Source: an uncultured Bacteroidales bacterium (GTDB taxonomy: Bacteria > Bacteroidota > Bacteroidia > Bacteroidales > UBA932). Taken from it: 64,000 nucleotides of DNA. The notes under the pieces are model-generated. The model saw nothing but the letters and a program-made list of their open reading frames with translations. It made no database searches and had not been told where the DNA came from. Position 1 is the stretch's first letter; every line of letters begins with the position of its first letter. Positions 20,902 to 32,640 of the stretch are shown here, in pieces. The stretch is taken from assembly GCA_944323445.1 (NCBI GenBank), contig CALUSM010000007.1, positions 1-64,000 on the forward strand. The letters are read 5' to 3'. A program made the position numbers and the translations under genes.

Positions 20902-21228
20902 GAGTCTGTTCAGCTTAAATCGACATATTATCATGTCTCATAAATACTTACACAAAATATACGATTTACAGACTGAGGGCAGTTACCTCACTGTATGTTT
21001 TCCTGCTTTCCGCATATATTGCTGTATGACAACATTATGCACGGTTCATCGGATAACAGACTCATCCTGGAGAAAACATATTGATCTCAGACTCCCCTAG
21101 CCAAAGCACCTACAAGGCGCATTGGTAAGCGGTACGTACTCCGACGTACTGTTCAGTCTGTTGTCAGCATAACTTTGTAATCATTTGTTTTTCAGCGGAA
21201 TGTTTCAAACAGTCAATTACAGACTACA
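20902..21228 (-). repeat. Copy A of a ~330-base intergenic element (inverted relative to copy B)
   Basis: This stretch between pstS and the Nudix gene has no credible gene but aligns end to end, on the minus strand, with 32309-32640. Shared pieces in the same order include CCTCAGTCTGTAAATCG (17 of 17; here 20978-20962), CATAATGTTG, AATGCGCCTT (21123-21114) and CAGACTGAACAGT (21160-21148). The motif AGTCTG or CAGACT occurs at about 20903, 20970, 21054, 21086, 21155 and 21219. Its function is unknown. Between 20675 and 20901 lie only the pst control sites. Confidence 0.8.
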
Positions 21229-21286: not shown

Positions 21287-21682
21287 CTACAGACATTCTT
21301 TAATCAAAGGCAGAATCTGCAAATCGGCAGGCAGCCAGTCCACCGACTCCAGCCCGTCCGCCGACAGCCAGCGGGCAGACTCATGCTCCTTAAGCACCAG
21401 AGTCCCGGACACCACACTGCACAGGTAGCAGTGCATCGTCAAGTGAAATGCCGGATAGTCGTACTCCACCGTACAGAACAGCTTTCCGATATTGATCTCA
21501 GTGTCCAGTTCCTCCCGGATCTCCCTGCGCAGAGCCTCCTCACGGCTCTCCCCGGCCTCCATCTTGCCGCCCGGGAACTCCCATTTGTCCTTGAACTCCC
21601 CGTAGCCGCGCTGAGTCGCCAGGATGCGGCCGCCGTCATGGATGACCGCCGCCACCACCTCTATCCTCCGTTTATTTTCCAT
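21287..21682 (-). CDS. Nudix hydrolase, MutT / 8-oxo-dGTP diphosphatase-like
   Basis: The protein is 131 residues from the preferred start. It contains a complete Nudix box, GGKMEAGESREEALRREI then REELD, following KWEFPG. This is the MutT-type arrangement for hydrolysing oxidised nucleoside triphosphates. A short C-terminal half with SARWLSADGLESVDWLPAD is also like MutT. I start at MENKRRIEVV (21682), which overlaps the GH105 stop by 11 bases; an ATG four codons upstream is equally possible. Nudix substrates are hard to predict, so 8-oxo-dGTP is probable only. Confidence 0.9.
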   Translation of the reverse strand: MENKRRIEVVAAVIHDGGRILATQRGYGEFKDKWEFPGGKMEAGESREEALRREIREELDTEINIGKLFCTVEYDYPAFHLTMHCYLCSVVSGTLVLKEHESARWLSADGLESVDWLPADLQILPLIKECL

Positions 21683-22853
21683 TGTCCCCGGCACCGCCCA
21701 ACATCGTATAGACCTGAACTCCTGCAGCTAAGAACGCTCCGACACCGTAGACCTCGGTCATCTCGCGGGTCACCTTCTTGGGATCCGCGCCGATGGGCTG
21801 CACCCAGCCGAGCTTGCCGTCCGGCTCCACAGCGTCGGTCAGGGCCTTCCAGCCTTTGAGAATCACCGGGATGAAAGTCGCCGCATCGAGAAGTCCGGCG
21901 TTTACCCCGTAGGCCAGGCCGTAGACGATAAAGCCGGTCGCGCTGGTCTCGGGCGAGGGATAGGACGCCGGATCCAGCAGGCTCGCGTGCCAGTAGCCGT
22001 CAGGACTCTGAAGCCCGGCCAGTCTCGCGGCCAGGTCCACAAAAAGGTCCTCGTAGAAATCCCTGTAGGCGTTTGTCTCCGGGAGAATCTGCAGCAGCTC
22101 CGCAAGGCCGCCTAATACCCAGCCGTTGCCGCGGCCCCAGAAGACCTTCTCGCCGTTGGCCTCCACATTGTCGAAATACCGCCAGTCGCGGTAGAAGAGC
22201 CGGGCCTCCTTATCGTACAGATATTCATAGGTAGCCTTGTACTCGCGGTCCATGAACTCGAGGAACTCCGGCCGTCCGGTCAGGACATACATCCTCGCAT
22301 ACACCGGAGGAGCCATGAACAGCGCGTCGCACCAGGACCAGCGCTCGAGAGTCGCCCCATCCGTATAGTCCAGTTCGAGAGTGCTGCACGAGGGATACCT
22401 GAGCACGAACTCCGTCCGCGCCAGTGTCGGCAGCAGCATATTGCGTTCACGGTATTTCTCATACATCGTCAGCCACGCCTGCGACACCGCAATGTCGTCC
22501 GCATGGTACATCATCTTCCCCGTCTGCCAGCTGTTCCTCCGCCCTATCCTCCTTATCCACTGATAGTAGCTGTCATCACCGTCCTCCCTCTCGGCCACCT
22601 CGGCCCAGTCCAGCATCCCCACATACAGCGCCGCCTGCGTCCAGGCCAGATCGCCGTGCTCCCCCTCATCTATCAGATGATTCGCCCTCTCCCAGTCAGC
22701 CACAAGCCTAAGCATAGATTTTACCTCCTGAGCCTCAGGAGCCTGCTGCGCCTCAGTCCTAACTGCCTTCACGCCACCTTCCGCCCTTGCCACCGCAGTT
22801 CCCGCAGCCGTCAGCGCCACCAGCGCCGCCACCATAACGATGTGTTTTTTCAT
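21672..22853 (-). CDS. GH105-family unsaturated rhamnogalacturonyl hydrolase-like protein
   Basis: The 393-residue protein has a signal peptide (MKKHIVMVAALVALTAAGTAVARA) and an (alpha/alpha)6-barrel pattern. Recognisable pieces include MMYHADDIAVSQAWL with candidate active-site Asp residues, CDALFMAPPVYARM, VFWGRGNGWVLGGLAELL and PETSATGFIVYGLAYG, all characteristic of GH88/GH105 (YteR-like) enzymes. These act on unsaturated uronyl ends left by polysaccharide lyases. It would act in the periplasm. No lyase or SusCD pair is nearby. A TAAGTTTG -7 box lies at 22886-22879 (minus). Confidence 0.88.
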   Translation of the reverse strand: MKKHIVMVAALVALTAAGTAVARAEGGVKAVRTEAQQAPEAQEVKSMLRLVADWERANHLIDEGEHGDLAWTQAALYVGMLDWAEVAEREDGDDSYYQWIRRIGRRNSWQTGKMMYHADDIAVSQAWLTMYEKYRERNMLLPTLARTEFVLRYPSCSTLELDYTDGATLERWSWCDALFMAPPVYARMYVLTGRPEFLEFMDREYKATYEYLYDKEARLFYRDWRYFDNVEANGEKVFWGRGNGWVLGGLAELLQILPETNAYRDFYEDLFVDLAARLAGLQSPDGYWHASLLDPASYPSPETSATGFIVYGLAYGVNAGLLDAATFIPVILKGWKALTDAVEPDGKLGWVQPIGADPKKVTREMTEVYGVGAFLAAGVQVYTMLGGAGDNGK

Positions 22854-22942
22854 ATAACGGTTCCTTTAAAATGCGGGGCAAACTTAGTGTTTTCGGGGGA
22901 TAACTCCAAATTCCGCCAGGCCTGCCGTGTTGTCAGCATCAC

Positions 22943-24211
22943 TTATCTACCAAGCAGCCACTCAGTAGCAGGAATAACATTTATTGTACAGCCCTCCTCC
23001 TCAATTGTCTCCTGCTCCTCAAATGTTACAAGCGTAAGATTGCCGCACTTAAGTTTCTTTGCAGCATTCTTCAATCCTCTTATCTCCCTATTGCGTGTCC
23101 TTTCAGTCGAGATGTCATATGATACCTGTATCAACTCCTGCACATTGCCGTCCCTGGCAATGACAAAATCAACTTGCGAGGATGCCTCCTTATAGTAGAA
23201 AACATCACAGAAGAGAGGTTTATAGCGTCTCATCAGCTCTATACACACTATGTTCTCCAGTTTCCATCCGAGATTTTCCAATGAGAAGCTATCTTCACGT
23301 TCTGTTACAAATGCGGTATCCACAACATATACTTTCTCGTTTCTTACGCGATCCTTGCTTTTATATGAGAATCGATTGACTCCCACCAATAAGAAAGCCT
23401 CCTTAAGGTATGAATAATAGTTTTCCGCCGTATGGTTCGACACCCCGAACAATTCTCCTACAGTCTTTGCTACAAATTCCTGACAATAATTATCGGCAAG
23501 ATATGCCGCTATTCTTCGCAATGCCTCCACATTGCGGACCTTGAAACGTCCGGCCACATCGTTCTTAATGATTGCATCCAGCAATCCGCCAATGTAACCT
23601 CTACGATTACCCTCATTGAATAATTCGGGGAATCCGCCTTGTTGAAAATATTCATGCAGGGCACGTTTGCGGAGTCCCTTTGCTTTTGTCGACACCGAAG
23701 CCGCATCAACCTTCTTCATCTCACAGTACTCCGAAAATGAAAAAGGATACAGTTCTACCTTATTGTTTCTTCCCGTCAGATGTGTACTCAATTCCTTACT
23801 GAGTAATTTAGAGTTAGACCCCGTAATGAACAGGTGTATTTTTTGACGAAGCAATCTATTGACAAACAATGGCCAACCATCTATATTCTGTACTTCATCA
23901 AGGAATAGATATTTAAATTCACCATATATCATATACAATGCTTCGAGCAAACGGTCCAAATCGCTTGCTTCCATATCCTTCATTCGGTCATCATCAAAGT
24001 TCACATAAGCAAATTCCGCCCCACTCTGTTTGAGGAACATCTCACACAGAGTGGATTTGCCGCATCGCCTGACACCTATCACCACCTGAGCTCTATAACT
24101 TTTCAAATCAAGCCGTGACTCTTCATGACGGGAGCATAACTCAGAGCAATCATTGGACAACAACTCCTCACGCTGATCTGCTACTACTGATAATAATGCC
24201 TGCGTATTCAT
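22943..24211 (-). CDS. AAA ATPase with DUF4143 domain
   Basis: The protein is 422 residues from the chosen start. It has Walker A VIGVRRCGKST, Walker B FLFLDEVQNIDGW, and a sensor LFITGSNSKLLSKELSTHLTGR. A winged-helix region and a C-terminal restriction-endonuclease-like DUF4143 segment follow (SFSLENLGWKLENIVCIELMRR, then DVFYYKEASSQVDFVI with a D..E..QVDF nuclease-like motif). The family is common in Bacteroidota and has no agreed role. The start at 24211 (MNTQALLSV) is preferred because a TATCTTTG promoter box at 24245-24238 lies just upstream, inside the longer open frame that would begin at 24268. Confidence 0.85.
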   Translation of the reverse strand: MNTQALLSVVADQREELLSNDCSELCSRHEESRLDLKSYRAQVVIGVRRCGKSTLCEMFLKQSGAEFAYVNFDDDRMKDMEASDLDRLLEALYMIYGEFKYLFLDEVQNIDGWPLFVNRLLRQKIHLFITGSNSKLLSKELSTHLTGRNNKVELYPFSFSEYCEMKKVDAASVSTKAKGLRKRALHEYFQQGGFPELFNEGNRRGYIGGLLDAIIKNDVAGRFKVRNVEALRRIAAYLADNYCQEFVAKTVGELFGVSNHTAENYYSYLKEAFLLVGVNRFSYKSKDRVRNEKVYVVDTAFVTEREDSFSLENLGWKLENIVCIELMRRYKPLFCDVFYYKEASSQVDFVIARDGNVQELIQVSYDISTERTRNREIRGLKNAAKKLKCGNLTLVTFEEQETIEEEGCTINVIPATEWLLGR

Positions 24212-24237
24212 AGTTTGCCATTCATTAGATTTTAATG

Positions 24238-24245
24238 CAAAGATA
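24238..24245 (-). promoter_or_regulatory. Promoter -7 box deciding the start of the DUF4143 ATPase gene
   Basis: TATCTTTG on the minus strand, a full match to TAnnTTTG. Transcription from it would begin near 24232. That excludes a start codon at 24268 and leaves the ATG at 24211 with a leader of about 20 bases. Confidence 0.65.
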
Positions 24246-24353
24246 AGTATATTTCCATAAGATTGCAATTTTCGCCAAAACTATTTCCATATACAACACA
24301 TCTATGCTATTCTTATTTCCATATTTACCATTTTGCACATTCAAAATATTCCA

Positions 24354-26228
24354 TCAATAAAGGAGGTCGGTGTAGCTGTCAATGTAGATGGGGGTGCCGA
24401 GGATGAAGTTGAATGAGCCCGACGGGAGTTTGGTGCCGTCTATGAGGTCATAGCCAACGGCTCTTTGTACGATTTCGGCGGGGGTAACTGATGGTTCTGG
24501 AGCGGACATTTCCTTTATAGTGTAAACAAGGTATTTGTCCTGCGGAGTGGATGTGGAGGAGTTGGGGTCGAATGGATAGGATATGGAGTGCAGGGCATTG
24601 CGGTCCATGATTTTTGGGACGCCTGTTATGTCGTACCACGTGTACTTGTCTGTGTGGTTGATATCGTACAGCATGAGCTTGCTTGCGTGGAGGGTCTGGT
24701 CGGTGGGGCTTATCGCTCCGGGACGGCGGCTGGAGCTGTCCTGCAGGCGGACGTTGTAGAGGCGGTGCTGCCGGATCCATTCGAGGTGGCTGCTGCTCCG
24801 GTAGCAGCCGATAAGGAGGATTTCTCTGTAGGCGCGGGAGAGTATACGGCTTATCTGCTCCATGTAGCCGTTGTGGTCTGATGTGAGGTCAAACGGCTCG
24901 ACCTGAAGGCGGAGGTTGTATTTTCCGGCTGTCTTGTCAAAGATGTAGTCGTCCAGCGGCTTGTTGAATTTCTGTGAGAAGGGGTACAGCAGGACCAGCT
25001 TGGGGATTGCGGGGAAGGTGACGGCTTTGTCCGGGTCGGGGCCTTTCTCATATTTCCGGCCGTAGGCGAAGAGCTGGTACATGTCCTTGATCTCAATCAG
25101 GTAGTTGCTGTCGGGCTTTTCCTGGTTGAGGTTTTTCCATTTGGTGTCGATGATGATGCTCTGGTATGTCCTGAAAGGGTCGGTCCGGACTCCGGCTTCG
25201 ATGAAGATGTCGGGCCGCAGCTGGAAGCGTCTGCCGGAGCCCTGTCTGTCCACAAGGTAATGGGCGGTGTGCTGGGTGTGGACTTTGAACTCGTCCGCCC
25301 GGGTGCGGAAGTAGTCTTTGAAGAGTTTGGCGACAAAGCTTTCGAAGAGTTTTTCCGCTGGGAACAGCAGGGCCTGGTTGATGCAGTTGCCGCTGAAAGT
25401 GGTGAATCCTCTGCCGAGGAGGATGGTTTCGCTCCAGCGGATGATTCGGGTGTACTTGTCCATCATCCTGTCTGCGTTGAGGGACCTGTGCAGGTCACCG
25501 TGGATGTCGCTGGAGGCGGGTATGTCCGAGAGCAGGTCAAGCAGCATATTGATGCGGGCCGAGTTCCTGGTTGAGGTGGTGATGCTCTGGAGCCTTTTCA
25601 AGGTGCTTACTATGATTTTGTTCTGGGGTATCTGCTCATCGTAGATATGATGACGGACGTAGAACCGGGACTGGTCGATGCTGTTTCTACGGATGTGCTC
25701 GCTGACCAGCAGGCGGCCTTTGAGGTAGCGTTCGTTGCCTTCGGTCAGGATGTAGCTTTTCCCGAGGCCGGTCTGATAAATCTGCTCCGCTTCGTTGAGG
25801 TAGTTGCTGATGTAGACTTCGAGTATGGGGAAGTTCTTCCGGGTCAGCAGGCCGGTGTCCTGAAATGTAACGGCGTCGATGCCGCGGAGGGCCGAGAGCA
25901 TCTTCAGGAAGATGCGACGGCAGGTGTTCCGGTCGGTCTCTTCCTGACCGGAGTGGCGGTAGATTTTCGGCAGGATTTCTATTATGGTCCCGTCGGTTGT
26001 CTGGACGGTGCCGACATAGTTGCAGGCCTGTATCCTGCGCTTGCTGCCGCGGATGGTCTTTTTGAAGACTTTGTCGATGTCGGGGAATGTGCGGCTGTCC
26101 GAATGGCTGAATGCCCATAGGTTCTCAAACGACTTCCTGGACAGTTCCTGGCCGCCGTCGGCGAAGAATCTGTCTCCATGTTCTTCTATGGAGCCGTATT
26201 CTGAAATGACTATGAGTTTTTCTGCCAT
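24354..26228 (-). CDS. mcrC: McrC-like restriction nuclease subunit
   Basis: McrC supplies the nuclease of McrBC-type systems and stimulates the McrB GTPase. The 624-residue protein has the N-terminal beta domain (ISEYGSIEE) and GRLLVSEHIRRN, typical of McrC. The PD-(D/E)xK core is RRFQLRPDIFIEAG, then SIIIDTKWKNLN (Asp...Asp-Thr-Lys). It is longer than E. coli McrC (348 residues), with about 150 residues after the nuclease core that look partly like an extra beta-rich domain. It follows mcrB by 8 bases and is the last gene of the operon. Confidence 0.9.
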   Translation of the reverse strand: MAEKLIVISEYGSIEEHGDRFFADGGQELSRKSFENLWAFSHSDSRTFPDIDKVFKKTIRGSKRRIQACNYVGTVQTTDGTIIEILPKIYRHSGQEETDRNTCRRIFLKMLSALRGIDAVTFQDTGLLTRKNFPILEVYISNYLNEAEQIYQTGLGKSYILTEGNERYLKGRLLVSEHIRRNSIDQSRFYVRHHIYDEQIPQNKIIVSTLKRLQSITTSTRNSARINMLLDLLSDIPASSDIHGDLHRSLNADRMMDKYTRIIRWSETILLGRGFTTFSGNCINQALLFPAEKLFESFVAKLFKDYFRTRADEFKVHTQHTAHYLVDRQGSGRRFQLRPDIFIEAGVRTDPFRTYQSIIIDTKWKNLNQEKPDSNYLIEIKDMYQLFAYGRKYEKGPDPDKAVTFPAIPKLVLLYPFSQKFNKPLDDYIFDKTAGKYNLRLQVEPFDLTSDHNGYMEQISRILSRAYREILLIGCYRSSSHLEWIRQHRLYNVRLQDSSSRRPGAISPTDQTLHASKLMLYDINHTDKYTWYDITGVPKIMDRNALHSISYPFDPNSSTSTPQDKYLVYTIKEMSAPEPSVTPAEIVQRAVGYDLIDGTKLPSGSFNFILGTPIYIDSYTDLLY

Positions 26229-26236
26229 CGGATATT

Positions 26237-27829
26237 CTATGCGGTGATGTGGTCTATGAATGCGGATGCCGATTCATTGCTCATGGAGGCGCTTGCTATA
26301 CCCTCTGTGTTCAGGATGTAGAAACTGGTTTCCTCGCTATCAGAGTCGTATCTACTGAATGCTGCTGTTGCGTCACCATCCTCGATATAGAAAGAGTGTT
26401 CATCAGGGATGCGGTCCTTTTCTCCAAGGACGAAACGTATCTTCTCCACATCGTTGTAGAAGTACTCCTGCAGGAGAGGGATGATTTTATTTGCCAGTGC
26501 TTTGAGTATCCGAATGCTCTCGTCTGCGGCAGAGGCTTCTATGTCGTAGAAGTAGGAGTGGCCTATCTGGCGGTCCTGGCCAAGGAGGGCGCGGATTCTG
26601 TCATTTATCGCTTGAAGAACGGTTTTGGCTTTCTCATTCCTCAACACATCGTAGTCCGGCAGATATTCCTTGAACTGGAAGCGGCGGCGGAGTGCGGTGT
26701 CCAGTATCTGGATGCTGCGGTCGGCGGTGTTCATGGTGCCGAGTAGGCGGAGGTTGGCAGGGACTCCGAAAAGCTCCTGAGTGTACGGCAGCCTGACTAT
26801 CATTTCGTTCTGGGCTCCCAGTCTCTTGTTCTCTTCTATCAGGGATATCAGGTCTCCGAATACTGCCGATATGTTTGCGCGGTTGATCTCGTCTATGCAG
26901 AACAGGAACTGCCTGGATGTGTCCCCAGCTATTGCTGCGAATTTGGCGTTCCTACTTTCTTTGGTGTCGGAGCAACATTCTGCTAAGGAACTGTAGCCGG
27001 CTAAAACAGCAGCCCTCTCACATGCATTGTAAAACACGCCTTTTTCGTAACTGTATTCTATCTTGCCATCTTCTTTAGTCTTGGCTTTCAGACCGATGAT
27101 GAACTCCTCGTAGCTGTAGGACTGGTGGAAGGTGATGACGGAACGGTTACCCTCCGGATATCCGGCAAATATTTTCTGCATTTCATAGGTTTTGCCTGTG
27201 CCCGGAGGGCCGTAGAGGATGGTCTGACTGTAATCAAAAATTGTATTTTGCTCTTGTTGAATACAATTAGCCCTTTTCGACGGTGGAATATATTGGAAGT
27301 ATTGATTAAAATTATTATCAATTTCCAATAATGATTCCATAAATGATTGATCCATAGAATTAAGTGCGTAGAACATCGCGCCAATATCATACCGTTCTCC
27401 ATTGTTCTGTAGCATCCTTATAGTCTGATTGGAATGGTCATCCAGTCCAATTATAGGAAGTGCGGAACAATCATAATATGCCTCAGACGCATTCTTTAAA
27501 AAATCTAACCGATTGATTGGTTCTTTAAATGCATATAGAATATCAACAGTTGTGGAAGATTCATCATTGTACGTTTTTCCACGAATTATTGATTTAACAC
27601 GACCAAACGCTTTATATCCTTGTTTCCATTCTGTTGGGGTTCCCTTACTATTATCAGACCCCAACCATATTATGACATATACACCATCACACAGTTCTTG
27701 GGGGACCTGAGTACAAACCACTGATATTGAAAATGGTTCTAAAACGCCGGCTTTACATTTGTATAAATTTTTAATAGCATCTACACTAGTTTTGCCTAAA
27801 CGTAATGATGCAATTGCTATTGTATTCAT
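26237..27829 (-). CDS. mcrB: McrB-like AAA+ GTPase restriction subunit
   Basis: The motor subunit has Walker A GPPGTGKT (207-214), Walker B FCIDEINRAN (Asp313-Glu314), the McrB-specific MNTADRS (366-372) for GTP recognition, and an arginine finger RRRF (381-384). The N-terminal ~200 residues are a separate domain (IWLGSDNSKGTPTEWKQGYK) that should read DNA. I do not recognise it as DUF3578. Base composition changes sharply near 27230, at the domain boundary: the N-terminal part is AT-rich like the methyltransferase gene, the AAA part GC-rich. The ATG overlaps the methyltransferase stop (ATGA). Confidence 0.93.
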   Translation of the reverse strand: MNTIAIASLRLGKTSVDAIKNLYKCKAGVLEPFSISVVCTQVPQELCDGVYVIIWLGSDNSKGTPTEWKQGYKAFGRVKSIIRGKTYNDESSTTVDILYAFKEPINRLDFLKNASEAYYDCSALPIIGLDDHSNQTIRMLQNNGERYDIGAMFYALNSMDQSFMESLLEIDNNFNQYFQYIPPSKRANCIQQEQNTIFDYSQTILYGPPGTGKTYEMQKIFAGYPEGNRSVITFHQSYSYEEFIIGLKAKTKEDGKIEYSYEKGVFYNACERAAVLAGYSSLAECCSDTKESRNAKFAAIAGDTSRQFLFCIDEINRANISAVFGDLISLIEENKRLGAQNEMIVRLPYTQELFGVPANLRLLGTMNTADRSIQILDTALRRRFQFKEYLPDYDVLRNEKAKTVLQAINDRIRALLGQDRQIGHSYFYDIEASAADESIRILKALANKIIPLLQEYFYNDVEKIRFVLGEKDRIPDEHSFYIEDGDATAAFSRYDSDSEETSFYILNTEGIASASMSNESASAFIDHITA

Positions 27830-29085
27830 TTCTTGTCTTTTAATTTTTCTAATGCACTTCTTAATGGTGAGAACAATGTTCTACCTTGGTTTTCTACTCT
27901 TCTTAAAATTCCTTCTGCCGCATTTGGGGAAAGATAGTATACCGAAGACACATCTTCTTTTTCAATTAAATCTAGCAACGATGATTTAATTATTTTAGAC
28001 GGAGTCGGTGGCACTAAACAATCCATGTAGATTCCATTCCATGCAATACCACCTTTTTGCCATTTATATGTCTGATTTACGTCTGTAAAGTCAATATCAT
28101 TCAAATTACCGCATATTCTTCCTTCATTAAAATCTTTGTATGAATCCTGAATGTGTTGCCAATCCCATTCTGTCTGTTCAGATGTTGACAACTCTGAATG
28201 TACTCTTTTTGCAATCCACTCAACAACTGGTACTGAAACAGCATTTCCTATTGCCGTATAGCGCAGTGTATTTAAATCTTCATCATTCCCAACGAATTGT
28301 TGAAGTTCAGTCCATTTATCAGGGAAACCCTGCAAGCGTTCAGCTTCCAGCGGAGTCATTCTCCTAACTCCATTATGACACACAACGTATGTTCTACTCC
28401 AATCAGTCCCTGTATGCCTACCGGATGAAGCCGCCAAACAATATGACACATTTGGCACTTTGGGATACTCATCGGGTTTAGATGCTTCTGTAATAAAGTC
28501 CAAACGTTCTCGCCTCGGTTTTTCTACACCACATTTATCAAATAAAACGTTAATGGCTTTAGTTGGATTATGCAACCAACAACACAAGTATATTCTGGTT
28601 CTTGATTGGGGGACACCGAAATAACGGCTATTTAATAATCTCCAAGAAACAGCATAGCCAAGAGAAGTCATTGTTTGTATAATCATACCAAAATCGCGGC
28701 CATTATTAGAATTAAACAAGCCGCCAACATTCTCAATTATAACTACTTCAGGCCTTTTATTTGCAATAAGGTCAGCGTAACGATAAAATAGGCCAGAACG
28801 AGTTCCATCCAAACCAAGCCTTTTAGATGCTCCCCTAGCCAATGATATATCTTGACAAGGGAATCCTCCGCACCATACATCAGAATGTGGTATATCTGAA
28901 CCTTGAACACTATTAATATCATTACTTATTTTCACATTCGGCCAATGCTGGGAGAGTACACTTTGACAGAAAGGATTTATTTCACATAAAAAATTTGTTA
29001 TAAACCCATTACGTTCAAAAGCAATATCAAATCCACCAATTCCTGCAAAAAATGAGGAAATTGTATATTTTTTCTTTTTAGGCAT
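27826..29085 (-). CDS. DNA (cytosine-5) methyltransferase
   Basis: The 419-residue 5mC methyltransferase carries motif I SFFAGIGGFDIAFE, motif IV GGFPCQDIS (catalytic Cys77), motif VI IIENVGGLF (Glu118), motif VIII QSRTRIYL and motif X AIGNAVSVPVVEWIAKR. About 100 residues after motif X (from ELSTSEQTEWDWQ) form an added C-terminal region. Coupled by ATGA to mcrB, it most likely protects the host from the McrBC-like nuclease, as in LlaJI-type systems. The recognition site is unknown. Its promoter -7 box TATCTTTG is at 29116-29109 (minus). Confidence 0.95.
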   Translation of the reverse strand: MPKKKKYTISSFFAGIGGFDIAFERNGFITNFLCEINPFCQSVLSQHWPNVKISNDINSVQGSDIPHSDVWCGGFPCQDISLARGASKRLGLDGTRSGLFYRYADLIANKRPEVVIIENVGGLFNSNNGRDFGMIIQTMTSLGYAVSWRLLNSRYFGVPQSRTRIYLCCWLHNPTKAINVLFDKCGVEKPRRERLDFITEASKPDEYPKVPNVSYCLAASSGRHTGTDWSRTYVVCHNGVRRMTPLEAERLQGFPDKWTELQQFVGNDEDLNTLRYTAIGNAVSVPVVEWIAKRVHSELSTSEQTEWDWQHIQDSYKDFNEGRICGNLNDIDFTDVNQTYKWQKGGIAWNGIYMDCLVPPTPSKIIKSSLLDLIEKEDVSSVYYLSPNAAEGILRRVENQGRTLFSPLRSALEKLKDKK

Positions 29086-29391
29086 TTTTTCTGATTTGTA
29101 CTAATTGACAAAGATAGGGATTTTTCATAAATGAGCGAACAGAATTGTCCCATTTGCCCTACCTATTATAGAAAAGACTGATGTGTTCAATGTCAGTCTG
29201 CACTATTGTCACTACAATGTATGCTAATTGTTTGCAAATTATCTATATTATAGCGAACTTTGCCATATGGCTGAGCCTAAACATAATGCGGGATAGGGAT
29301 AGCTGTTGACGCTCTAAGTTACATACAGCACGCCTTCATTTATGTTTTTGTGCATTTTATTTAACTGACAAGTAATTAAACACAATAGACT
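29086..29391. promoter_or_regulatory. Divergent intergenic region between methyltransferase and zinc-ribbon genes
   Basis: This AT-rich gap of about 300 bases contains TATCTTTG (29116-29109, minus), a full -7 box 24 bases from the methyltransferase start. For the plus-strand pair I see no convincing TAnnTTTG box within 60 bases of 29392. No gene, tRNA or copy of the AGTCTG element was found in the remainder. Confidence 0.5.
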
Positions 29392-29649
29392 ATGCAAACA
29401 GAATACTCTTTAAAATTGCGCTGCGCCACATGCGGCTGTGATGACAAATTTGAGTTCAATGAAGATAAATCATATGTAAAATGCACATTTTGCAACAGGG
29501 AGTACCTTGGCGGAATAGAAGAATTAAAAGAGCTTAATTCTGATACCATTGATGAAGTAAAAGAGCAGATCAAGAAAAATACAGCCAAGTACATTCAGGA
29601 TGAATTTAAAAAAGCATTTAAGGGAAATAAGTTTGTAAAATTCAAATAA
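29392..29649 (+). CDS. Small zinc-ribbon protein of unknown function
   Basis: This 85-residue protein has two CxxC knuckles, LRCATCGCDDKF and VKCTFCNREYLGG, that should bind one zinc. A charged, helical C-terminal half follows (IDEVKEQIKKNTAKYIQDEF, then lysine-rich). I cannot assign a function. It is encoded divergently from the restriction operon and four bases before the membrane-protein gene, with which it probably forms one transcript. Base composition is low in GC, like its neighbour and unlike the chromosome around it. Confidence 0.75.
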   Translation: MQTEYSLKLRCATCGCDDKFEFNEDKSYVKCTFCNREYLGGIEELKELNSDTIDEVKEQIKKNTAKYIQDEFKKAFKGNKFVKFK

Positions 29650-29653
29650 GCAA

Positions 29654-30124
29654 ATGAATAGTTTTATCTCTTTTTTTAAAAATTGGGGTGATATAATACT
29701 GTCAGGACTAGTCGCTGTAGGCGGTATTTTTGCATATTTTAAACATGACAAAAAATTAAAAGAGCAAGAAGCCAAACTTAATGAGTTGCAAATCAAACAA
29801 TTTGAAAAAGAAGAAGCCAAAGAGAAAATGGCAGAAATGAAAGCTGCTATAATTCCTGGTCATAAAGGGAGTGCGAGAATACGATTTGTCAATGCAGGAA
29901 AAGCAGATGCTAAAAATATCAAAATAGAAATACTGTCTACTAAAGAAGAAATGTCCGGAATCCTCTATACGAAATTTGGCCCATATGATGTCATAAATCC
30001 TCAATCTCACAGAGAAGAACACCTTTCACTATGTGAAGGACACTCAAAAACGATTAAGTTGAGAATAACTTGGGATGATGAATTTCAGAAAGAGCGATCT
30101 GTTTCACTTTCTGTTCCCATTTAA
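29654..30124 (+). CDS. Membrane-anchored coiled-coil / beta-domain protein of unknown function
   Basis: The 156-residue protein begins with one hydrophobic helix (about residues 12-30, ILSGLVAVGGIFAYF). A highly charged coiled coil follows (KHDKKLKEQEAKLNELQIKQ, extending to about residue 65). Then comes a beta-rich domain (SARIRFVNAGKADAKNIKIE to the end) that looks like an immunoglobulin-type sandwich on the cytoplasmic side. I do not recognise the family. Together with the zinc-ribbon gene it forms a two-gene unit inside the defence island, so a defence role is possible but only by location. Confidence 0.7.
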   Translation: MNSFISFFKNWGDIILSGLVAVGGIFAYFKHDKKLKEQEAKLNELQIKQFEKEEAKEKMAEMKAAIIPGHKGSARIRFVNAGKADAKNIKIEILSTKEEMSGILYTKFGPYDVINPQSHREEHLSLCEGHSKTIKLRITWDDEFQKERSVSLSVPI

Positions 30125-30249
30125 ACAAATATCAGTATGGACAGAGCCCCCGGTCATTACGCCTCTTGGCTCCACAGCCGTACAAAAAAAATTTAACACA
30201 AGTGTTAATCATTCCTATGAACTAAAAATGCAACCTACCTTCCGCATCT

Positions 30250-30942
30250 TTACAAAAACTTCTCCGGACACCTGAGCTCTTCTATCAAGCGGTCTACCGT
30301 AATACAAGGATTATGCTCTGAGAATTTTTGCTCCTTCGAGTAGGTTGACCTCAAGCGCCTGGCATAAGATATGGCTGATTTTTCATTTCCCAAAGATGTA
30401 ATTATGTCATACATTTTCTTAGAATTCTTCTCATACCGATATGTCTTATATCCCTTGCACTCGCGTATTTTACTTTCAAGTTTCTCAATATATGCAGTGC
30501 GGCTTATCGCTGTGTCGCAATACTGAAAGTGAAGCAGAAACCACAGTTCAAAGGCTTCGTTGCTCCACGCTACCTGGAACCCGTATTTTCTAGCCATCTC
30601 TATTGCTTTGTCGAAATCATTATTGTCATCTTTGTCGAACACTACCCATACCCTGTCAAATCTAAGTTGACTTGCCCGCTCAAGCTCATCTTTTTTATCT
30701 TTTGCCCACTTTACCAACGAACATGTAGAACGTCCTCCCCCTTTAACAATTGGAGACAACACCTGAGAATAATTGTCGGCTATAAAGGATTCAAAATAAT
30801 TGGGTTCGGTCTCACTTCCCTCACATACAATAAGAAAACGGACTATTTTGGACCGCACTTTTTCTCCACGCTTCTTTGCTGCTTTTGCCTCGCGCCTTAT
30901 CAGCTTTTGCTTCTCTCTCTTGTATTTTGGAATAAGTCCCAT
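30250..30942 (-). CDS. rloB: RloB-family protein (AbiLii-like, TOPRIM-type nuclease candidate)
   Basis: The 230-residue protein starts with a strongly basic helix (PKYKREKQKLIRREAKAAKK). It then shows an RloB/TOPRIM-like core: FLIVCEGSETEPNYFESF with the conserved Glu, VWVVFDKDDNND with the Asp pair, and SNEAFELWFLLHF, a very characteristic RloB stretch. RloB is the partner of RloA in type I restriction-associated loci and of the ATPase in the AbiL abortive-infection system. It lies 11 bases after the ATPase gene. The nuclease activity is inferred from the fold. Confidence 0.9.
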   Translation of the reverse strand: MGLIPKYKREKQKLIRREAKAAKKRGEKVRSKIVRFLIVCEGSETEPNYFESFIADNYSQVLSPIVKGGGRSTCSLVKWAKDKKDELERASQLRFDRVWVVFDKDDNNDFDKAIEMARKYGFQVAWSNEAFELWFLLHFQYCDTAISRTAYIEKLESKIRECKGYKTYRYEKNSKKMYDIITSLGNEKSAISYARRLRSTYSKEQKFSEHNPCITVDRLIEELRCPEKFL

Positions 30943-30953
30943 AGTATGAACAT

Positions 30954-32183
30954 TTAACGTAAAAACGGAATCGCCCCAAAACGTCCCTCGATATAATCCT
31001 TCTCAATGCTTCGGTCATTACGGACCTTGACCCCACGGTCATCCTTGAACTCGACAAGGGAATAGAGAACGCTGGAGTCGGTCCTGTCTTTCTCTGTGAA
31101 CCAGATCTGATCTCTACGCAAATACGCGAGATTGAGCAAGTTGGTATCGTGTGTAGTACATACAAGTTGCGCTCCGTTGGGATTTGTATTCTTATCCATG
31201 AACAGCTGGACAATGCTTCTGGTAAGCATCGGATGCAGGCGGATGTCCAGTTCGTCTACAAGCAGGATTGTTCCGTTTTTCAGAGCCGAGAACAGCGGAC
31301 CTGACAGCGAGATCACCTGTTTTGTCCCCTCTGATTCCATCAAGTCTTTTCTGAACATCCGTTCATCCACGACATTCCCTTCATTATCGTAGATATTATG
31401 AACGGTAAGCATTTCATAAAGCCCCTTAAATTCCACCTTCTTTTCCTTTTCCACGTAATAGTAAAGTGCTTCCTGGACTTTCATATCCTTAAATCCTAAC
31501 TGGAGGTGCTGATAAAAACTCAAAATATCCTTGCACTCCTCGCTGTTGTTCTGAAACAGCTTCATCGTAAAACTGTCATTTTCACCGAAACTTTTGCGTG
31601 AGAAATCGTACATGCCGCGGAAAAAGCCGATAATCGACTCTGCTTTTTTCCCATTCAGTTGAGCCACTAATGACAGGAAAAGCCTGTTTTCGGGTGTCAT
31701 CTCCTCTTTCCCCTCACCTTCGGCGAATCTTGCAGAAGAGACATGCAATTCCTGACAGTTTCTCTCAAACAGGCAGAACTCCCGCTCTTTTACTTTCTTC
31801 TCATACAACCACTCCCCGATTATCCTCTGCCGGTCATGCTCTATGCCATAGCGGTACTTTGTATTCCCGAGAAGAAACTGAATCTCATAAGATGTAGGCT
31901 CTGATTCAGAAGTTTCGTCCAAACAGAAAGGGTCAAATGCCAGTTTGTCTCCCGGATTCAGCCAAACAGAAGACAGTACTAAGTCCCTCATGGCCAGCAG
32001 AGCCCGCAGGACGTTACTTTTACCGCTCGAATTGGCTCCGTATATCACAGCGGCAGGTAAAAGGCGGTAATCCTCTGTTTCGACAACAGAAGCCTTCAGT
32101 TCCCTAATCGAAGTAGCCTCCATCCGCAGAGACTGCTCATATCTGAACGAACGGAAATTCTGAAAAGTAAAATTTACAAGCAT
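30954..32183 (-). CDS. rloA: RloA-like AAA ATPase (AbiLi-like, OLD/SMC-type)
   Basis: The 409-residue ATPase begins MLVNFTFQNFRSF, typical of the AAA_15/AAA_21 group. It has Walker A IYGANSSGKSN (48-57), Walker B TILLVDELDIRLHP, and QLVCTTHDTNLLNL with the switch His. A D-loop-like element sits between. No nuclease domain is fused; that role is presumably held by RloB downstream. A TATATTTG promoter box lies at 32215-32208 (minus), 25 bases from the start. The pair matches the two-gene AbiL arrangement described for lactococcal phage defence. Confidence 0.9.
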   Translation of the reverse strand: MLVNFTFQNFRSFRYEQSLRMEATSIRELKASVVETEDYRLLPAAVIYGANSSGKSNVLRALLAMRDLVLSSVWLNPGDKLAFDPFCLDETSESEPTSYEIQFLLGNTKYRYGIEHDRQRIIGEWLYEKKVKEREFCLFERNCQELHVSSARFAEGEGKEEMTPENRLFLSLVAQLNGKKAESIIGFFRGMYDFSRKSFGENDSFTMKLFQNNSEECKDILSFYQHLQLGFKDMKVQEALYYYVEKEKKVEFKGLYEMLTVHNIYDNEGNVVDERMFRKDLMESEGTKQVISLSGPLFSALKNGTILLVDELDIRLHPMLTRSIVQLFMDKNTNPNGAQLVCTTHDTNLLNLAYLRRDQIWFTEKDRTDSSVLYSLVEFKDDRGVKVRNDRSIEKDYIEGRFGAIPFLR

Positions 32184-32308
32184 ACGATTTTCTCATAATA
32201 TTTAATGCAAATATAGGAAAACACGTGAATAGGCGCAAATATTTGAGAAATATTCTCACATTTTAAATTTTCCGACTTTCACCCTACGTAACATTTCCAC
32301 ACCACCGA

Positions 32309-32640
32309 TAGTCTGTAATAGAGCGTTTGGGGTATCAGACCATAGAACAAATGGTTACGCGGTTATGCGGATAACAGACTGAACAGTGCGCCTGGACATG
32401 TATTCTCTTAAATGCGCCTTAGAAGCGTTGTGGCAAGGGCAGTCTGCGGTCAGCACATTTTCTCCATGTCGAGTCTGTAATCGAATAATCCGTACATAAT
32501 GTTGATAGACAGCGTTATATGCCAAAGACCGGATAACAGACAAGCGGCGACACTCCTCAGTCTGTAAATCGGATACCTGACGTAAGTTTCTATGTAATAG
32601 AAAAAAACGTAAAACTGGGTATGAACAGACTGTGCAGTAA
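32309..32640 (+). repeat. Copy B of the ~330-base intergenic element with three inverted-motif modules
   Basis: Lying between rloA and vsr, this copy aligns with the minus strand of 20902-21228. It consists of modules in which AGTCTGTAAT-type and ATAACAGACT-type motifs face each other about 60 bases apart: 32311-32320 with 32372-32381, 32473-32482 with 32534-32542, and 32560-32569 with 32625-32632. Each pair could close a stem of nine or more pairs. No open frame is conserved between the copies, so this is non-coding. The remaining 32184-32308 and 32641-32741 hold the rloA promoter and nothing else I can identify. Confidence 0.8.

Follow-up and report, generated by a model that had tools for sequence, protein, structure and literature searches.

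The operon and its base composition

The window analysed here is a stretch of 64,000 nucleotides from an uncultured Bacteroidales bacterium. On its minus strand lies an operon with the features of an McrBC-type restriction-modification system, namely an AAA+ GTPase, an McrC-like nuclease and a methyltransferase within the operon, which is presumably cognate to McrB. This operon is termed locus A, and the genome to which the window belongs is G000. A second locus of the same genome, locus B, is found on contig C10. The features under discussion are as follows.

29108 to 29153, minus strand: promoter block of 46 bp, directly upstream of cassette A, ending in TATCTTTGT
27826 to 29085, minus strand: cassette A gene 1, C5 DNA methyltransferase of 419 aa (PF00145, E 3.4e-61)
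26237 to 27829, minus strand: mcrB
27227 to 27829, minus strand: cassette A part 2, the McrB N-terminal recognition domain (codons 1-201), with a predicted EVE/YTH (PUA-like) fold
27203 to 27232, minus strand: junction, with the GC changepoint at 27230-27232, directly before TILYGPPGTGKT (Walker A)
26237 to 27223, minus strand: constant part 1, McrB AAA+ GTPase domain (PF07728, E 2.4e-18)
24354 to 26228, minus strand: constant part 2, McrC nuclease with a C-terminal extension (PF10117, E 7.7e-74)
24361 to 27223, minus strand: motor segment, repeated at C10:35405-38267 with 99.7% identity

The methyltransferase of cassette A carries the motifs GFPC, ENV, QSRTR and IGNAV along with a conserved C-terminal extension, and its stop codon overlaps the start of mcrB (ATGA). 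In McrB, the Walker A motif GPPGTGKT is present at residue 207 and NTADR, of the MNTADR (NxxD) signature, at residue 367. The AAA domain matches the solved McrB GTPases 6ut3 (E 1e-58) and 6hz4. McrC has a nuclease motif of the PD-(D/E)xK type (PD...DTK), PDIFIEAGVRTDPFRTYQSIIIDTK, at residue 339. Its C-terminal extension (residues about 466-590) is also seen in a DUF2357/PDDEXK_7 protein of genome G815, and probably in other long proteins of the family and order.

The surroundings are rich in other elements. Upstream of cassette A, at 30250-32183, there is an AbiLi/AbiLii-like pair made up of an AAA_21 ATPase and RloB, and ATPase/partner pairs resembling it are present at the same site in sister species. 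A CRISPR array occupies 100-2300 of the window, with the repeat GTTTCAATTCCACTATGGTACGATTAAAAG and a spacing of about 65 bp. Among the open reading frames read around the operon, no invertase was noticed; a tyrosine integrase is part of the locus B element.

In the sequence-only reading, it was proposed that the base composition changes abruptly near 27230, with 38 G+C of 60 at 26701-26760 and 12 of 60 at 27301-27360. Both counts were exact on recount, and the maximum-likelihood changepoint on the bases of mcrB falls at 27230 itself (G+C 0.342 to 0.506). The third codon positions of the gene (26237-27829, minus strand) change at codon 199, i.e., at 27232, where GC goes from 0.25 to 0.62; the 2lnLR of this break is 71.4, against a maximum of 21.4 in 2000 codon shuffles. 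When the changepoint was fitted to the whole operon (24354-29085), the best break was again 27230. The third-position GC is 0.26 for the methyltransferase, 0.26 for the N-domain, 0.62 for AAA and 0.76 for McrC. The methyltransferase and the N-domain thus do belong to one AT-rich side, as had been read, but 29085 is not the end of it. Low GC continues to about 32.6 kb, across the remainder of the defence island, and the composition, therefore, marks only the 3' edge of the cassette and not its 5' edge.

Three cassettes on one motor

Locus B carries the same motor as the window. Over 2863 bp, the two copies show nine mismatches, of which none lies between 24382 and 27062 (2681 bp) and eight lie in 27063-27203; the AAA part accounts for 987 bp of common sequence. 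The homology ends sharply on both sides, after 27223 before Walker A and in the last codons of mcrC. Beyond the junction, locus B departs from the window: its C5 methyltransferase (342 aa) is another one, and its N-domain (235 aa) is unrelated. The 46-bp block at 29108-29153 is identical at 45 of 46 positions to the block upstream of cassette B. Its 26-bp core, searched in 19 genomes of the genus, is restricted to the sequence ahead of cassette A in G000 and ahead of cassette B in G000 and G002. With the promoter block and the motor both shared, loci A and B differ only in their interior. Locus B sits in a 13.4-kb stretch that is common to G002, a genome of the same genus, at 97.1% identity, and it has a tyrosine integrase and a second methyltransferase nearby. 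A second possible restriction-modification set was also seen in locus B (L003:4964-8269), consisting of a PD-Lambda-5_A-like protein, a 282-aa protein without a family and a C5 methyltransferase.

A third cassette is found in the sister species G014 (stretch L022). This genome is collinear with the window over 21309-27226 (5918 bp, 97.0% identity) and again from 32653. The stretch in between (27227 to about 32653) is replaced as a whole. In its place, G014 has cassette C, which is made up of two further C5 methyltransferases and a third, different N-domain, and after it other defence genes. The motor of G014 remains close to that of the window, with 98.8% identity for the AAA protein and 97% for McrC. 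Thus, three unrelated pairs of methyltransferase and N-domain, two of them in G000, stand on AAA/McrC segments that are 96-99.7% identical. The changeover has the same position in all three, immediately ahead of Walker A, the last common base being 27223 against locus B and 27226 against G014. In every cassette, a methyltransferase gene lies immediately before mcrB, with the ATGA overlap in A and C; cassettes A and B have one methyltransferase each and C has two, both C5. The operon is, thus, modular, and its cassette is replaced at one site.

It had been suggested that related strains might have conserved AAA and McrC parts next to divergent, co-varying methyltransferases and N-domains, and this is what was found. 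A single history shared by N-domain and AAA domain is excluded, as the N-domains have no detectable similarity to one another. The break in third-position GC is present in all three loci with this motor, and it could on this ground be an old property of the McrB lineage, left by an ancient fusion and without any sign of exchange. Such an explanation has next to no probability. It is refuted by the low-GC N-domains and methyltransferases, which are unrelated between the loci while the high-GC motors beside them are nearly the same.

The proposal that 27230-29085 is a replaceable specificity cassette was, therefore, supported in its substance, with a 5' border that varies with the comparison: it is the promoter block at 29108-29153 against locus B and about 32653 against G014. 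The motor was also called resident, which holds in a relative sense only, since it is intact in 3 of the 19 genomes of the genus and left as a remnant in one. In G003, the island has been lost from 24656 to 32557 at the same site and only the 3' end of mcrC is kept. G012 has a different gene set there, with two methyltransferase-like genes. Within the genus, defence genes turn over at this chromosomal site. A diverged inverted repeat of 250 bp (about 73% identity; 20939-21189 and 32346-32594) flanks the 11-kb defence island in the window, and related repeats are present at this site in G014, G012, G002 and G006. One end of the G003 deletion lies inside the right arm of this repeat.

The two copies of cassette B also hold a recombination signal. 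Locus B of G000 and the G002 element do not differ at any of the 1898 positions that run through the methyltransferase and the N-domain to AAA base 161; beyond it, 67 of 2701 positions differ. A four-way comparison gave seven sites in favour of grouping the two B copies, all of them at positions 21-161, and 14 sites in favour of grouping the motors of G000 with each other, at 240-2605. The two classes do not overlap, and the probability of this order is 8.6e-6. After the switch point, the AAA of locus B has 11 differences to the chromosomal-type G014 and 25 to its own sister element in G002. This suggests copying from the chromosome to the element in AAA; mcrC gives no direction. The pattern is suggestive of gene conversion that recently homogenised the motor across both G000 loci, and an assembly artefact could produce it as well.

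The motor-bearing genomes of the genus are MAGs or MAG-like. G000 is without a 16S gene, a lack that is typical of short-read assembly, and it is on this account probably a short-read MAG. An exact repeat of 2.68 kb is poorly resolved by short reads, and the perfect identity of the motors within G000 may have come from a collapsed assembly. In its stronger form, this objection would make the whole finding a chimera, in which a collapsed repeat, mismatch-free over its 2681 bp, has joined the cassettes to one motor sequence and the shared motor is artificial. This was judged very improbable. The joins in G000 match independent contigs, from cassette B into the mobile element in G002 and from the chromosomal flank into the motor in G014, and the result of three cassettes thus does not depend on the motor identity within G000. 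Moreover, G002 and G014 have motors that are 4% apart and, hence, are not one collapsed sequence, and relatives of the LlaJI system show the same pattern on plasmids that are recorded as complete.

The cassette A pair on other effectors

Relatives of the cassette A pair are found beyond the McrBC operon. In two contigs from a viral collection, full-length relatives of methyltransferase A are present (64% identity in L069 and 48% in L070), and directly downstream of each lies a relative of N-domain A (58% and 34%, respectively). In L069, this domain belongs to a 1030-aa protein with a LlaJI-like AAA (32% identity to that of the window). In L070 (7293-8912), it is fused to GmrSD_N (PF03235, E 6.5e-21), and the fusion adjoins a C5 methyltransferase and an AAA_15-type ATPase, a set that is possibly a GmrSD-based restriction-modification system. 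Methyltransferase A and N-domain A, therefore, stay together while the effector changes, and the pair is co-inherited across three effector contexts.

The N-domains are otherwise rare. The profile search of the viral collection with N-domain A matched only L069 and L070, and no relatives were found in plasmids or phage records. Across 395 genomes of the phylum, there were two weak matches. The one in G815 is a distantly related N-domain, carried by a different McrB whose partner is a DUF2357 protein; the other, in G927, was taken as chance, since restriction genes are absent around it. N-domains B and C have no relatives in viral contigs or plasmids. Among 218 genomes of the order, C gave one weak match, and B gave none outside its own genome. 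A profile comparison of N-domain A with N-domains B and C gave no match, and the exact motor-start pattern did not occur in viral contigs.

The fold of the domain has been approached by modelling. Codons 1-201 of McrB matched no Pfam family at E up to 10 except for two chance-level matches, neither of them DUF3578, and a sequence search of the PDB with the N-domains gave nothing significant. An AlphaFold2 model of N-domain A, built with three sequences, has a pLDDT of 68 and a pTM of 0.73. Its best structural matches are EVE, THYN1, YTH, ASCH, the EVE-HNH enzyme VcaM4I and DrmA (Z 7-9, maximum 9.2), with no Foldseek E below 0.001 for this model of pLDDT 68. For N-domain C alone, the model reached a pLDDT of 37, too low for a fold to be read from it. 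The predicted EVE/YTH-like fold would fit a nucleic-acid reader.

Domains of the EVE/YTH type often read modified bases, and a Type IV reading, therefore, keeps some weight. On this reading, McrBC would depend on methylation: its N-domain would recognise foreign DNA by a modified base, and the methyltransferase would be an independent gene travelling with it, e.g., an anti-restriction or orphan one. The classic McrBC is a Type IV system, and the modelled N-domain A is structurally closest to EVE, YTH, THYN1 and other modified-base readers. The gene arrangement stands against it, as the methyltransferase overlaps the start of mcrB in cassettes A and C and comes right before it in every cassette. 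Methyltransferase A is, moreover, next to N-domain A on three different effectors, and a host C5 methylase placed next to a 5mC reader would risk self-attack. The methyltransferase-linked McrBC systems LlaJI and PcaI cut unmodified DNA (PMC1459862, PMC8989522). On balance, the Type IV reading is unlikely. The operon is most probably an McrBC-type restriction-modification system that changes its specificity by homologous exchange of a cassette made up of the methyltransferase and the recognition domain. Judging from their co-occurrence, the N-domain and the methyltransferase would read the same site, and the system would restrict DNA that does not carry the cognate mark.

Known systems and the proposed exchange of specificity

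The nearest precedents are the methyltransferase-linked McrBC systems. LlaJI, encoded by the Lactococcus plasmid pNP40, is of the McrBC type with methyltransferases and cuts unmodified DNA. Like the window, it consists of methyltransferase(s), an McrB-like R1 whose N-terminal half binds DNA specifically and an McrC-like R2 (PMC1459862). It has two C5 methyltransferases like cassette C, as compared to one in cassettes A and B, and its AAA is only about 25% identical to that of the window. When LlaJI was compared with Lactobacillaceae plasmids (L. plantarum), R1 was found to be 78% identical from residue 254 and the R2 nuclease 69%. The first 253 residues of R1 gave no match, and between the methyltransferases there is no more than generic similarity (about 28-31%). 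The junction lies 17 residues before Walker A in both (254/271 and, in the relative, 313/330). No published account of an allelic replacement of methyltransferase and N-domain in LlaJI was found, and the plasmid comparison here shows such a replacement. As the R1 gene is annotated in two pieces in L088 and the methyltransferases are divergently placed in L089, this case serves as architectural support and not as functional proof. A 2.29-kb stretch upstream of the LlaJI-like operon (L088:1-2291 and L089:1-2292) is inverted between these plasmids at 99.9% identity and adjoins an IS30-like transposase gene.

PcaI of Pectobacterium is another methyltransferase-linked McrBC type that cuts unmodified DNA. 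It resembles the window in having a C5 methyltransferase with McrB- and McrC-like proteins, an McrC with extensions, a presumed mobile region and, as here, an unrelated N-domain on the McrB-like protein; it differs in being described as one system of one specificity, and the accessible part of the account mentions no exchange on a shared motor (PMC8989522). The Type IV McrBC of E. coli has the AAA+ GTPase with the NxxD signature and the PD-(D/E)xK McrC in common with the window. Its N-domain is the methylcytosine-reading DUF3578 (ADAM) without a partner methyltransferase, whereas the window has a non-DUF3578 domain and a methyltransferase in the operon. In the CoCoNuT census, modular specificity domains and methyltransferase association of McrBC systems have been described, and its authors announced the methyltransferase-linked branch for separate publication (PMC11090510). 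In the mostly openly readable literature, no report was found of methyltransferase and N-domain being exchanged together, as alleles, on McrBC motors that are nearly identical.

An analogy is the exchange of recognition domains in the HsdS subunit of Type I systems, in which the specificity module also varies while the motor and nuclease are constant (PMC12707154). There, one HsdS subunit serves both cutting and methylation; in the window, two proteins are exchanged together, which their adjacency makes possible. Thus, methyltransferase-linked McrBC is known, and what appears to be new here is the joint exchange of two genes, which would work like HsdS domain exchange.

The proposed exchange may be described in terms of two units. 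The McrB AAA+ GTPase motor and the McrC nuclease (24354-27223) would be the constant unit. The variable unit, at 27224 to about 29108, would consist of the methyltransferase(s) and the N-terminal recognition domain of McrB. The cassette would be replaced as a block, the probable route being homologous recombination; this would be possible because the cassette is bordered by conserved sequence, by AAA on its 3' side and on its 5' side by either the promoter block or the chromosome that flanks the island. Such a joint replacement would keep self-protection and cutting matched. A more far-reaching possibility, put forward tentatively and held to be rather doubtful, is that the chromosomal and the integrase-bearing loci are a living pair, which swap cassettes and homogenise the motor within one cell line and so change the specificity and the methylome together. 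If that were true, the cassette would be transferable as a unit between McrBC, LlaJI-like and GmrSD-type effectors.

In Type II-like systems, cutting and protection are carried out by separate proteins, and how specificity can change without killing the host is an old puzzle. Two adjacent readers in one cassette, swapped at a conserved motor sequence, would be a direct and testable answer to it. The natural, sequence-exact junctions may be usable for making McrBC enzymes with new specificities, and the methylome produced by a methyltransferase could reveal what its partner N-domain recognises. The cassette A pair is also found with a GmrSD-type protein, which points to effector-independent recognition modules.
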